Assembly (NCBI GenBank): GCA_903865745.1
Contig: CAIPKV010000085.1
Location: 1-64,000, forward strand
Reading direction: 5' to 3'
Origin: an uncultured Verrucomicrobia subdivision 3 bacterium
GTDB lineage: Bacteria; Verrucomicrobiota; Verrucomicrobiia; Limisphaerales; UBA11358
DNA length: 64,000 bases
The notes below the pieces were generated by a model, which was given only the letters and a program-made list of their open reading frames with translations, was not told the DNA's origin and ran no database searches. The translations under genes and the position numbers were made by a program. This document shows, in pieces, positions 23,404-63,916 of the stretch (position 1 is its first letter; each line of letters starts with the position of its first letter).

Positions 23404-23802
23404 GACGGTTCCGCGCCAGCCTGCCGGCAACTTTCGCCAGCCAGTGACGGTTCCACCCGACCCTTGGGCGGACTTGCCCGGGGCTTGGGCGGTTTCGCCA
23501 GACCCTCTGGAAGTTCCTACCCAGCATCGGGAGGAACCTCTGAGTCGTCTGGAAGTTTCTCTGAGTGGCTCAGAAGTTCCTCCGAGCCGTCTGGAAGTTT
23601 CCCTGAGCGGCTCAGAAGTTTCTCCGAGCCGTCTGGAGGTTTCCCTGAGTGGCTCAGAAGTTCCTCCGAGCCATCTGGAAGTTTCCCTGAGCGACTCAGA
23701 AGTTTCTCTGAGCCATCTGGAAGTTCCTACGAACCACTCAGAAGTTCCTACCAATGGCCTGGAAGTTCCCCGGAATCATGGGAAAAGTGCCAATTTCGTT
23801 TA
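23404..23802. repeat. 21-bp phased palindromic array 1
   Basis: Cores start at 23509, 23530, 23551 and every 21 bp to 23782 without any indel; degenerate older units continue upstream in the same phase to about 23404. That gives roughly 19 units. The core is GGAAGTT(T/C)CC or AGAAGTTTCT, an inverted repeat (GGAA/TTCC, AGAA/TTCT). Between cores, CTGAG-NGG-CTCAG forms a second inverted repeat. In the middle, units alternate so that a 42-bp higher-order period is seen, suggesting recent duplication of unit pairs. The stretch is open in several frames on both strands simply because 21 is a multiple of 3; I do not regard these frames as genes. A small helical+FnIII-like gene begins 84 bp downstream. 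Confidence 0.9.
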
Positions 23803-23886
23803 AAAAGGTCCGCCGGAGGCCAAAACGATCCTTTTCGGTCACGGTAAACGTCCACGCTAGAAAACTATTAGTTATAAATTGAACCT

Positions 23887-24582
23887 ATGAAAAGAGACCC
23901 GATTAAAAAAACTGACCTGGCCTTCGCGGCCCAGTTGCTCACCTGCAAGACCAACCTCCCGGCGCACGCGGCCACGCTGAAATTAACCCTCGAACAAGTG
24001 GCTTCGCAGGCGGCGGATGCCTTGGCCTTCAACTACTGGCTCAGTAGCAACACTGCCATGCACCGCGACGCCCAACAGTTCACCAAGTGGAAGAATTTGA
24101 TGCGCAACGGCGGCGCGGTGGGCATGGACAAGGAACCGGGCGTGCCGGTCTTGCCCGACCCCGTGCCGCCGGTGGACCCGGGCATTGAGGATCGGCACCG
24201 CGCCCTGATTGTGTCCTGCCATAACAATCCTGCGTACAACATCGCCATTGGCACGGCGTTGGACATGGAAGGCGCCGAGATTACGCCGCCGGATTTGACC
24301 CTGGTGATGCCGTTGCTCACGTTGACCATCAGCGGCAATCAGGTGGTCATCGGCTGCGGCTGGCAGGGGTATCAAGCCTATCTGGACCAGGTGGAACTCC
24401 AGGTGGACCGCACCGATGGCAAGGGTTACGTCCTGCTGACCTATTGCACCACGCCCGGCTTCACCGACCCCACGCCATTCCCCGCCGTGCCGACCAAATG
24501 GACTTACCGCGCCATCTTCCGCCTGAACAACGCGCAAGTCGGCCAATACAGCAGCCCCGTCAGCATCATGGTGGGAGTTTGA
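23887..24582 (+). CDS. Small helical + fibronectin-III-like protein linked to array 1
   Basis: 231 residues, no signal peptide or membrane segment. The N-terminal third is predicted alpha-helical and begins with a KTDLAFAAQLL motif shared with the protein at 33249 (SDLAFAAQM). The middle is a Pro-rich linker (PVLPDPVPPVDPGIED). The C-terminal half is beta-rich and fibronectin-III-like, with GWQGYQAYLDQVELQVDR, TPFPAVPTKWTYRAIF and a terminal VSIMVGV. The C-terminal half matches the 33249 protein closely (WQGYRTFLDLCEFQVDRRDG, TPFPAVPTIWQYRAIY, VSVTVGV), so the two are paralogues. It lies just downstream of array 1 in the same orientation. I do not recognise a function. Confidence 0.75.
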   Translation: MKRDPIKKTDLAFAAQLLTCKTNLPAHAATLKLTLEQVASQAADALAFNYWLSSNTAMHRDAQQFTKWKNLMRNGGAVGMDKEPGVPVLPDPVPPVDPGIEDRHRALIVSCHNNPAYNIAIGTALDMEGAEITPPDLTLVMPLLTLTISGNQVVIGCGWQGYQAYLDQVELQVDRTDGKGYVLLTYCTTPGFTDPTPFPAVPTKWTYRAIFRLNNAQVGQYSSPVSIMVGV

Positions 24583-24915
24583 TTCAAACGGGGCTGGCTC
24601 GACCAACCTTGGGCTGGATGATTCCATCCCGTTGGGATGGGCGGCCAACCCCGGACGATTTTCTTTTATGATTTCAGCGTATCGGAATGCGTGTTCATTC
24701 GTGGGATTCGTGTCTAAACTTGGCTTCCCGGCATTTCAAAATCTGAGTTTCATCTGTGCCCATCTGTGGCTAAATAAATTGGCCCGGTTTTAGGTCGCGT
24801 GGCGGGCTTTTAACGCTTCCGCCGAGCAATTTTTGATGCCACAAGGGGTTTGGTAGGCAAGCTTAATGCGCCACTACTAATGGTGTTTTTTATCCGAAAA
24901 ACCCGCAGTTTCGCA
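24583..24915. other. Intergenic region with dispersed short repeats
   Basis: No gene seen. It holds a hairpin CCATCCC-GTT-GGGATGG (24624-24640) just after the FnIII-like gene, a possible weak terminator without a T run. It also holds two dispersed tandem motifs. One is CGTGTTCATTCG followed by TGGGATTCGTGTC (24690-24714), related in inverted orientation to 32399-32426. The other is CATCTGTGCC-CATCTGTGGC (24751-24770), a 10-bp duplication. Confidence 0.5.
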
Positions 24916-24944
24916 TTGTGGTTTTGAGCGGTTTTTCATATATT
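24916..24944 (+). promoter_or_regulatory. Candidate sigma-70-type promoter of gyrB
   Basis: TTGTGG (-35) at 24916-24921, a 17-nt spacer, and TATATT (-10) at 24939-24944. This would place the transcript start near 24951, about 43 nt before the gyrB ATG. Based on consensus only. Confidence 0.4.
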
Positions 24945-24993
24945 TTAGGGATTCGTTGCCGCACCACATTTTAGCCGGAATTGCACTATAATT

Positions 24994-62305: not shown

Positions 62306-62412
62306 CCTTCTCCCCCAAGGAGAAGGAACCGGTAGCGGACGCTTCAAGATTCCCGGTAGCTTATTCGTTCAATCCCAGCGCGGGTATTTCCCAAGCCGCG
62401 GCGAACGTTTCT

Positions 62413-62496
62413 CCCTCTCCTCGCCCGCCTACGCTGTGCTTCGGCGTGGTTTGTCGATGGTCGCGTCGTAGCGAAGCGAAGACGGAGAGGAGAGGG
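62413..62496. repeat. Long hairpin
   Basis: CCCTCTCCTC (62413-62422) and GAGGAGAGGG (62487-62496) form a perfect 10-bp stem around a loop of about 64 nt; part of a larger CCCTCATCC...GGGTGAGGACG inverted arrangement (62293-62514). Confidence 0.6.
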
Positions 62497-62661
62497 CAGG
62501 GGTGAGGACGGTCTTCCCAACCTCTGACTAAAAATCCCTTCGTGCCAATGGGTGAAATTCGGGTCTGTCCCAACCCAAAAACCGCAGATTCGGCCTAAGC
62601 CCACCATTGCCAACGGCTTAACCATATTTACCGTCCGCCAACTGTTGTTTTCTATACACGT

Positions 62662-62880
62662 AAGCTCCCGCTTGCGTCGCACAAGCTCCCGCTTGCATGA
62701 CAAAAGCTCCCGCTTATGACGCGCAAGCTCCCGCTTCGGCCGTCTAAGCTCCCGCTTGTGTGACAAAAGCTCCCGCTTGGCTCACGCAAGCTCCCGCTTG
62801 TGACGTTCAAGCTCCCGCTTTAATCAGCCAAGCTCCCGCTTTGGCGACCCAAGCTCCCGCTTAATGGCCGCAAGGGAGTC
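62662..62880. repeat. 21-bp phased array 4: invariant 12-mer plus variable 9-mers
   Basis: AAGCTCCCGCTT (arms AAGC/GCTT, TCCC loop) occurs ten times without a mismatch at 62662 and every 21 bp to 62851, then a degenerate terminal copy AAGGGAGTC at 62872. The ten 9-nt intervals are all different: GCGTCGCAC, GCATGACAA, ATGACGCGC, CGGCCGTCT, GTGTGACAA, GGCTCACGC, GTGACGTTC, TAATCAGCC, TGGCGACCC, AATGGCCGC. The pattern (fixed repeat, unique intervals, degenerate last repeat) is CRISPR-like in form but much shorter, and no cas gene is present. It is followed about 420 bp later by the helical+FnIII-like gene at 63302. Confidence 0.95.
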
Positions 62881-63301
62881 AGTCCGGGCGGATGGCTCAC
62901 CCCGCAAAACCACCCGCCGCCGGAAAACTCCACGGTGGCCGTTCGCCGTCGGCTGCGGATTCTTCATCGGGCTTAAATGACCGCTTGGTTGGGAAAGTGC
63001 AATATCCGGCTGGACCGCAGACCGCCCCTGGGCGGCACCCGCCATGATCCAAACCCGAATACCCCTTTGTTTACCCCGTTTTAGGGTGCCGACCAGCCCT
63101 ATTTTGGTATTCCTTTCGCAACTTATGAACAGTTGTAAGTTATTTATAATCAATTAATTATAATAAAATAAATCGTGACAATCGGGGTGGAGGCAGGCTA
63201 TGATAAAAAGCGTGAGCCAACTGGCATCATCAAAGCCCCGTAGGGTATAGTGGGATTTGAGATGAAACAGGTCCGTTCACAAATAAGGACAAAAGAAAGT
63301 T
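62881..63301. other. Leader region between array 4 and the FnIII-like gene
   Basis: No gene recognised. An AT-rich stretch (63140-63175) is followed by a run that includes AAAAAGCGTGAGCC and CCCCGTAGGG before the gene. A purine-rich AAGAAAG lies 4 nt upstream of the ATG and may act as ribosome-binding site. Confidence 0.4.
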
Positions 63302-63916
63302 ATGGACCATGTAGGTTTAGACTTCGCAAACAAAAAGCCGAACGACCTGTTCAAGTTCGGCGATAAAGTTCACACCGCCCAGTTGGCCAATGTCCCGTTG
63401 TATGCCGGGTGTTTGATTACGGCGGTGATGCTCAACACGGCCAATCAGGATTACGGTGCCAAGATTGATGCAAGAGCCGAGGGCGGACCCATCTCAACGA
63501 AGGTCGCGTTAGCTTCCCGTGCGGTGCTCCTCGGCCTGCTCTATCAAATTGCCGCGTGGCTCGAAGGCAAGGCGGCCGGCAACGCGGATACCATCAACCT
63601 CGCCGGTTTTGATACCGTTGAACACGTTTACTCGCCCCAGACGATTCTGCTTACGCCAGCCATCAAGGCCATCCTGAACTTCATGACCACGCAATTGAAA
63701 TTGCGCGTCACGACGGTGCCCAATGCGAATTCCTTCGAGGCGCAATATCGCATCGCCGGTGGCGCGTGGGTGCCGTGCGGTTCCTTCCCCAACTCCCGTG
63801 CCATCATCATCACCGGACTGGTGCCGGGCGTGATGTACGAATTCCGCGTGCGCGCCGTGGGCGGCCTCACGGGTTGGTCGGCCTGGAGCGATACCGCCAG
63901 CCACATGTGCATGTAA
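63302..63916 (+). CDS. Helical + fibronectin-III protein linked to array 4
   Basis: 204 residues, no signal peptide. The N-terminal 125 residues are mainly helical (YAGCLITAVMLNTANQDYG, VALASRAVLLGLLYQIAAWLEG). The C-terminal part is a fibronectin type III domain (PNANSFEAQYRIAGGAWVPC, RAIIITGLVPGVMYEFRVRA, GGLTGWSAWSD). The N-terminus is not obviously homologous to the 23887 and 33249 proteins, but length, helical-then-FnIII plan, orientation and position downstream of a 21-bp array are the same. Function unknown. A clear terminator follows. Confidence 0.75.
   Translation: MDHVGLDFANKKPNDLFKFGDKVHTAQLANVPLYAGCLITAVMLNTANQDYGAKIDARAEGGPISTKVALASRAVLLGLLYQIAAWLEGKAAGNADTINLAGFDTVEHVYSPQTILLTPAIKAILNFMTTQLKLRVTTVPNANSFEAQYRIAGGAWVPCGSFPNSRAIIITGLVPGVMYEFRVRAVGGLTGWSAWSDTASHMCM

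Follow-up and report, generated by a model that had tools for sequence, protein, structure and literature searches.

Dispersed arrays of 21 bp units, often palindromic and sometimes followed by a small protein gene, as candidate DNA docking sites in a verrucomicrobial genome

Iteron and centromere arrays (iteron/Rep and parC/ParR) consist of helically phased tandem sites beside a protein gene, and REP families have one sequence that is common to all loci. Other described repeats invite comparison: TIGR arrays alternate repeats of 8–12 nt with 9 nt spacers, the repeats varying by locus (PMC12045711); GTAG REPs abound in the verrucomicrobium O. terrae (PMC3733652); PARCEL elements code for a 25-residue repeat (PMC2996958); ToxIN antitoxin repeats are 34–36 nt long and form pseudoknots (PMC5086642); and intergenic tandem repeats show deletions in some lake bacterioplankton genomes, including Planctomycetes (PMC9426551). 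The dispersed 21 bp arrays reported here match no described element, and no description of such arrays, that we could find in the open-access literature; the parts consulted of PMC4210602, PMC9426551, PMC4060949 and PMC4524435 contain nothing similar.

The window (the whole stretch of 64 000 nucleotides that was analysed) had been predicted to hold four palindromic arrays of period 21. The arrays are confirmed as real: Tandem Repeats Finder and a period scan recovered all four, and a fifth, weaker one was added (Table 1). Arrays 1, 2 and 4 are indeed each followed by a gene in the same orientation, and array 3 is an orphan, with no gene after it. The palindromes hold for arrays 2, 3 and 4 and not for array 1, for which the dyad gave p = 0.053 in one test and p of at least 0.09 in the other, where it lay outside the 50 best arrays. 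Array 1 shows a pronounced 42 bp alternation (self-identity of 0.91 at 42 bp).

Table 1. Arrays, genes and segments of additional DNA in the window.
Feature	Position	Strand	Details
Weaker fifth period-21 array, 5 fitted units	16423..16613	.	No family gene adjoining
Segment 1: additional DNA between gcvP and gyrB with array 1 and gene 1	23064..24829	+	Flank comparison
Array 1 (approximate ends)	23504..23776	+	13 fitted units of 21 bp
Gene 1, family 1 (alignment A2), 231 aa	23887..24582	+	10 members in own genome
Segment 2: additional DNA with array 2 and gene 2	32443..33992	+	Flank comparison
Array 2 (approximate ends), 8 units, core AGGGACGTCCCT-like	32958..33125	+	Dyad p = 0.005
Gene 2, family 1, 236 aa	33249..33959	+	42% identity to gene 1 product
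Segment 3: additional DNA, array present, without intact gene	38345..39211	.	Relatives' flanks
Array 3 (orphan; approximate ends), 19 units, core GGGCAAACGNGTTTGCC-like	38556..38954	.	Dyad p = 0.005
Copied unit: leader, array 4 and tail	62539..62933	+	86% identity to orphan array C28:53297-53670 (minus), 395 columns
Array 4 (approximate ends), 10 units, invariant AAGCTCCCGCTT core and 9 bp spacer	62662..62871	+	Dyad p = 0.01
Gene 3, family 2 (alignment A1)	63302..63916	+	13 members in own genome

A sample of 864 kb from the same genome (24% of it) holds 52 arrays. At period 21, 47 regions of this sample reach 55% self-identity or more over 105 bases, and at period 42 there are 41, as against at most four at any single other period in the range 10–60; chance is thus excluded for the period-21 arrays. 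The proposed pitch of two helical turns was upheld: 627 of 646 unit steps fitted in 62 own-genome arrays are 21 bp, by a fit that penalizes other steps. Cores are about 10–12 bp and spacers about 9–11 bp, with frequent 42 bp alternation among arrays, and in only 27 of 99 arrays does a conserved block differ significantly from the remainder. Significant dyads occur in 43 of 87 arrays, where about four were expected, with centres that vary among arrays (19 even and 24 odd); the other 44, array 1 included, have no significant palindrome. Mismatches in paired columns show no G–T wobble bias (115 G–T and 126 A–C; p = 0.52), and no Rfam family reached the gathering score in seven loci; a reading as RNA hairpins was rejected on these grounds. 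A coding repeat was likewise rejected, as the codon-phase spread (0.097) is below the permuted value (0.12), despite a slight excess of stop-free frames (88 of 104 arrays against 77.9 expected) that weakly favours coding. The absence of both wobble bias and codon phase thus favours sites in DNA over RNA hairpins or coding sequence. Array sequences differ between loci, as the original prediction held; only 27 of 1891 array pairs exceed every null pair in likeness, including one pair that is a single array met twice, at two contig ends.

The reading that we prefer, at a probability of roughly 0.35, is that a dispersed intergenic element carries an array of multiple DNA docking sites in helical phase, and that the recognized sequence is switched between copies. 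The element would comprise a leader, about 5–20 units of 21 bp, a tail and, optionally, a gene whose product is a small protein of helical or helical-FnIII type. A putative dimeric DNA-binding factor, encoded elsewhere, would attach to the dyad core in every unit, and the 21 bp pitch, by turning the sites to the same face of the helix, would favour cooperative assembly, which in turn might control the resident gene or mark the locus. Copies of the element would change the core, and hence the recognizer, with the pitch, leader and spacer motif retained. In this scheme the protein recognizer and its cooperativity are inferred, as are a role in regulation and mobility of any kind.

Several related genomes have empty sites where the array-bearing segments lie. 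The gcvP and gyrB flanks of segment 1, about 1.77 kb apart in the window, are separated by 25–68 bases in four of the 11 same-genus gyrB loci read (L140, L142, L145 and L147). At the site of segment 2 the flanks are 42, 33 and 19 bases apart in L152, L153 and L156, respectively, and L161 has 2.6 kb of other sequence there, these being the compared stretches that span both flanks. The site of segment 3 was compared in 14 relatives: it measures 0–18 bases in seven (L151, L154, L156, L158, L160, L161 and L164) and 48–155 bases in four (L155, L157, L162 and L163), L153 has 453 bases that include a reversed gene remnant, L152 has 1962 bases with a different array and a truncated ORF, and the stretch from L159 is without the left flank. 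No target-site duplications are evident by eye at the array 3 site. A phage or plasmid vehicle was rejected: the motif WSD[PA]VSHM gave no stretches in viral contigs, and the family member L108 as a query (family 1 not included) returned no phage records and, against plasmids, a single partial match at 35% identity.

Copies of arrays with conserved unit order occur at unlinked places, and array 4 with its leader and tail has such a diverged, orphan counterpart (Table 1). The leader stretches of the gene-linked and orphan copies are 89% identical over 139 columns, the final 16 of which belong to the array. In eight matched units, a count that excludes unit 1 in each copy as well as a unit that had no partner, the cores are unchanged (0 of 96 positions) and the spacers carry three changes in 72 positions, a difference that is not significant (p = 0.08). 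The array 4 leader occurs at five places in the genome, one of which has no more than 52 of its bases. Two core types begin at the same base after five copies of this leader, and in phase the spacers of one type match those of the other at 0.41, the highest value among the 21 phases and higher than in any of the 2016 control comparisons with other arrays. The cores are thus switched behind one leader with the spacers retained. Paralogous loci have the gene and flank in common, with the array contents replaced.

Many of these observations would also suit a selfish or neutral satellite: arrays of no use to the cell that arise and are evened out by slippage, unequal exchange and gene conversion on a dispersing intergenic element, with genes that serve as cargo or remain from a helper. 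The many copies, the presence and absence among relatives, the decayed remnants, the order-conserved copies at unlinked places and the replacement of array contents between conserved flanks all fit. Slippage, however, should even out spacers and cores alike, whereas the 12 bp core of array 4 is invariant and its 9 bp spacers differ, and across core types it is the spacers that are retained while the cores change. The 21 bp step and the gene linkage in many genomes would also require a constraint. We regard such a satellite as possible but rather unlikely.

Gene linkage is strong. A period-21 array lies upstream of all 23 own-genome family members from two initial searches. The original prediction had named, beforehand, a lack of array enrichment near homologues in other genomes as its refutation; arrays lie upstream in 47 of 78 such family loci and downstream in none, and the prediction thus came through that test. 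Viewed from the arrays, a gene of either family lies downstream of 13 of the 52 in the sample and none lies within 800 bp of the other 39. Certain arrays sit between convergent ORFs, and for these promoter control makes little sense. Other helical proteins, of 317, 238, 125 and 247 aa, also adjoin arrays; the own genome has one copy of the 317 aa protein and two of the 238 aa protein.

The products of genes 1 and 2 are paralogues, as proposed, and that of gene 3 belongs to a distinct family; compared by profile, the two families give a match probability of 57% (E = 1e-4). The suggested architecture of helices followed by FnIII fares differently in the two families. For family 2, with a helical part at residues 7–100 and FnIII at 105–204, the AlphaFold model (pLDDT of 94) and Foldseek matches to FnIII domains (E = 8e-7) make the FnIII fold a firm prediction, and the N-terminal domain obtained no separate match, FnIII or phage tail proteins heading the results of both fold searches. 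For family 1, with a model pLDDT of 42, the FnIII domain is only suggested. Pfam gave no match for proteins 1 and 2, PADLOC gave none for the gene 1 family, and no Rep or ParR match in Pfam was obtained among the window proteins searched.

It had further been proposed that each helical-FnIII protein binds its own cognate repeats. The strong gene–array linkage suits this idea, a fixed protein footprint would fit the constant step, and several members are basic, with pI values above 9. Several observations nevertheless speak against the pairing. Two proteins that are 95% identical (L011 and L012) stand behind arrays with different cores; most sampled arrays are without a family gene nearby; the five leader–array copies, with their two core types, include only one with a family ORF in the 3 kb locus; and the cores are unchanged at the orphan copy. 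The architecture recurs in at least two protein families, and the proteins are not consistently basic, with net charges of −4 to +7 and pI values of 4.8–9.4 (5.5 and 5.3 for L011 and L012), other members thus being neutral or acidic. Cognate pairs are accordingly improbable. Judging from the near-identical proteins with different cores, the gene-less arrays, the shared leader and the inconsistent charge, the recognizer, if one exists, is probably not the adjacent protein.

We found no recognizer for the array cores. Isolated matches to the array profiles outside arrays beat all 12 nulls for six of the 52 arrays, with about four expected, and total 251 against 115 in the nulls, half of them from a single array of coding-like composition; operators elsewhere in the genome thus show no clear excess in the 24% covered. 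This weighs against a role as decoys, in which each array would copy one operator and titrate transcription factors of the host or a phage. The varying dyad geometry and the core switching behind one leader would be in keeping with decoys, which we nonetheless consider very unlikely. A broader scheme, to which we give little credence, is a genome-wide address system: self-matching palindromic addresses, in 10–20 copies each at a pitch of two helical turns, would be read by guide-directed or array-to-array sequence pairing and not by one dedicated protein per address. The addresses would be freely rewritable while spacers and leader stay, and the helical-FnIII and other small helical proteins would be effectors.

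Among described systems, the arrays are like TIGR arrays in their short repeats, spacers of about 9 nt, alternating types, locus-specific sequence and adjoining protein gene (PMC12045711). They could accordingly be guide-RNA arrays with a non-Nop effector, transcribed, with repeats as processing signals and spacers as guides; the core and spacer sizes and the frequent 42 bp alternation speak for this. Against it, the draft genome has no match to the Nop domain (PF01798), for which the control was positive in four archaea, there is neither a wobble signature in paired columns nor an Rfam family in the seven loci, different core types share a spacer motif, and 52 arrays lie in one quarter of a single genome. 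Compared with TIGR-Tas, the two-unit pair is 42 bp with a 21 bp step rather than a 36 nt guide unit, and there are many arrays per genome and one leader with differing cores (PMC12045711). We doubt the guide-RNA reading strongly.

A type III toxin–antitoxin system would account for a small protein gene preceded by tandem repeats, but is scarcely credible: the units are of 21 bp with no RNA pairing signature, as against the longer pseudoknots of ToxIN (PMC5086642), and near-identical proteins follow differing arrays. No endoribonuclease was found in Pfam, NCBIfam (family 1 not included), PADLOC, a PDB sequence search or Foldseek, and nothing ToxN-like was seen, the searches giving FnIII, phage tail proteins or nothing (family 1 being without a good model). 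The arrays resemble PARCEL elements in their dyad-symmetric tandem repeats and patchy distribution (PMC2996958) but lack codon phase, and differ from CRISPR arrays (25–36 nt repeats with spacers of similar size) in that the entire unit is 21 bp.

Like the palindromes of REP/RAYT transposase elements, they are palindromic, intergenic, dispersed and at times grouped (PMC3733652), but most have their own core and a 21 bp tandem step. Like iteron or centromere arrays, they are tandem sites in helical phase adjoining a protein gene, but there are dozens of them on the chromosome, with no Pfam match to Rep or ParR for the proteins searched and with differing cores behind near-identical proteins. What is conserved is an architecture that retains the step and often the dyad and leaves the sequence free to vary; it is linked to protein families, multicopy and without a name, in Verrucomicrobiota and in genomes titled Acidobacteria. 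If the proposed recognition is true, one bacterial genome would hold many DNA addresses that are rewritten between element copies with the intervening DNA kept, which has no parallel in the repeat and array types that we found described; even if purely selfish, the arrays would stand out as unusual among bacterial satellites, with their helical pitch.

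The 21-base period of the window, which lies on contig C85 of a draft genome of 3.63 Mb in 87 contigs, is seen in four clear arrays and, more weakly, in a fifth. The original prediction placed a gene behind three of them, and this order holds for arrays 1, 2 and 4 (genes at 23887, 33249 and 63302), while array 3 does stand without a gene. The first two proteins are related as proposed, both belonging to family A2; the third belongs to family A1, whose kinship to A2 is at best remote by profile comparison. Searches of the genome found 10 A2-type and 13 A1-type members, and all 23 have a period-21 array no more than 1.1 kb ahead of the chosen start (the six minus-strand loci were reoriented). 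A more sensitive profile search returned additional, weaker members, which were inspected in part.

A sample of 864 kb (24%) of this genome, with contigs chosen for carrying known family members, holds 52 arrays; two of these (C59:14 and C64:14) are one array at two contig ends, and several of the weakest overlap long ORFs. Of the 15 family ORFs sampled, 13 are preceded within 800 bp by an array at the set threshold, and one of the other two has a lower-scoring array ahead (C59:102532-102730). The remaining 39 arrays have no family gene. Other helical-looking proteins lie behind some arrays (C59:61265-62218 minus, C70:88039-88794 minus and C64:23706-24449). Period 21 is specific in this genome: among periods of 10-60, the sample has 47 regions at 21, 41 at 42 and at most four at any other. 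Contigs often terminate at or close to an array or a family gene (C59:1, C64:1, C35:1 and loci in other genomes) and, as C59 and C64 start with the same array, draft assemblies probably break there.

Counting the genome itself, A1 was found in 22 and A2 in 23 of 146 genomes of the order, and five of 387 genomes drawn from the phylum match at E 1e-15. A scan of genome contigs with the motif WSD[PA]VSHM picked up 32 loci; most carry titles from various groups of Verrucomicrobiota, and three are titled Acidobacteria gp5. The expected enrichment of arrays near homologues was found in other genomes: after removal of four own-genome loci, four duplicates and 16 with less than 450 bp upstream from 102 loci, 47 of 78 have an array upstream and none has one downstream (Fisher p = 5e-19, with loci counted irrespective of relatedness). 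Two of the three Acidobacteria-titled loci (L091 and L094) are among the 47, several of the 31 array-less loci are partial matches or just below threshold, and no array was seen in 10 same-genus gyrB upstream regions. Of 42 other-genome arrays, 11 contain the 5-mer CGGAC/GTCCG (null mean of 1), so cores are less diverse outside the window's genome. Period-8 repeats also lie upstream at three loci (L058, L081 and L109), with a GTTCGCG run at L093. Family loci also occur in records titled Proteobacteria, Klebsiella pneumoniae, Methylacidimicrobium and Akkermansia (L107, L108, L090 and L113, respectively), bins which may be mislabelled or contaminated.

Re-fitting 62 own-genome arrays gave 708 units, with a step of 21 in 627 of 646 cases under a fit that penalises other steps. 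The arrays had been described as palindromic; dyad symmetry reaches significance (0.05, column permutation) for 34 of 70 gene-linked arrays and nine of 17 others, 43 of 87 overall, a set that does not include array 1. Array 4 has the clearest plan, an invariant AAGCTCCCGCTT core with differing 9-bp spacers. No codon phase was seen in array conservation. Mismatches in paired columns comprise 115 G-T and 126 A-C, and thus give no sign of RNA wobble pairing. The arrays may be guide arrays.

In five paralogue pairs (59-95% protein identity), the gene is common to both members (only its 3' part for L008/L009), as are 63-412 bp of upstream flank in four pairs (19 bp in L017/L018), and none of the five pair alignments covers the array; the common flank ends up to ∼200 bp before the array or inside its first 40 bp. 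Some core similarity (0.62) persists in L015/L016. The leader, the sequence 5' of array 4, occurs at five places in the genome, at one as 52 bases only and at one with a family ORF, and is followed from the same base by AAGCTCCCGCTT arrays (two) or ACNGACGTCTNT arrays (three). Between the two types, core matching is 0.29-0.31. Spacer matching reaches 0.41 in phase; no other of the 21 phases scores as high, and 2016 comparisons with other arrays all stay lower (maximum 0.406, mean 0.254). The cores were thus exchanged, with a spacer motif (about GTSAC) retained. Array 4 and the gene-less array at C28:53314 are order-conserved copies with leader stretches 89% identical; their eight matched units, which omit those without a clear partner, differ at 0 of 96 core and three of 72 spacer positions. 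L026 and C1:32710 form a second order-conserved pair.

The segments carrying arrays 1-3 vary among relatives. The first is absent between gcvP and gyrB in four same-genus genomes; at the remaining seven gyrB loci read, the neighbouring genes differ or the sequence is too short. At the second, three relatives have 19-42 bases in place of 1550, and L161 has 2.6 kb of different sequence. At the array 3 site (867 bases in the window), seven of 14 relatives have 0-18 bases and four have 48-155; one lacks the flank, and two contain what is left of other such segments: L152 has a different array and a truncated ORF (14300-16420, oriented) and L153 has, in reverse orientation, a fragment from the C-terminal end of a family gene (13340-13930, oriented). 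No target duplication was evident by eye at the array 3 site; presence, absence and copies of the segments suggest mobility. The arrays may be selfish satellites.

Family 2 (A1) has a confident structure prediction, with helices at 7-100 and an FnIII domain at 105-204; nine members searched gave no NCBIfam match, four of nine gave weak Pfam fn3 matches, and PHROG tail proteins matched weakly. The family 1 (A2) model is poor, and eight members searched gave one weak Pfam match. PADLOC matched none of the three window proteins. Net charge (−4 to +7) and pI (4.8 to 9.4) spread too widely for a consistent sign of DNA binding. C-terminal FnIII-family fragments occur alone or directly behind a complete gene (L113-L118 and G045:C95:80296-80466).

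Features of the window
Feature	Position	Remark
Tandem 7-base repeats	21813-21863, 35177-35209, 35449-35479, 35971-35997, 36638-36669	In long ORFs
N6/N4 methyltransferase (PF01555), then BglII-type endonuclease (PF09195, E 2e-30)	60547-62108	Directly before array 4

The 7-base repeats lie inside a 1435-aa ORF and one that we take to be gcvP-like, and encode peptides such as EIGNRKSEIGNF; ORFs 44386-45804 and 53227-55041 contain comparable insert-like peptides. Elsewhere in the genome, a 1071-aa ORF that presumably resembles Cas9 (C59:49459-52674 minus) lies ∼0.3 kb from the L015 array.

What stays constant is the step, the identity within each array and, for about half of the arrays, a dyad; what varies is the core sequence. 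This pattern fits DNA sites for putative dimeric factors, which would sit on one helical face and whose address, the core, would be rewritten between copies. We found no prior description of such arrays in the open-access literature; TIGR-Tas, REP, CRISPR and type III toxin-antitoxin systems each fail at least one tested feature.
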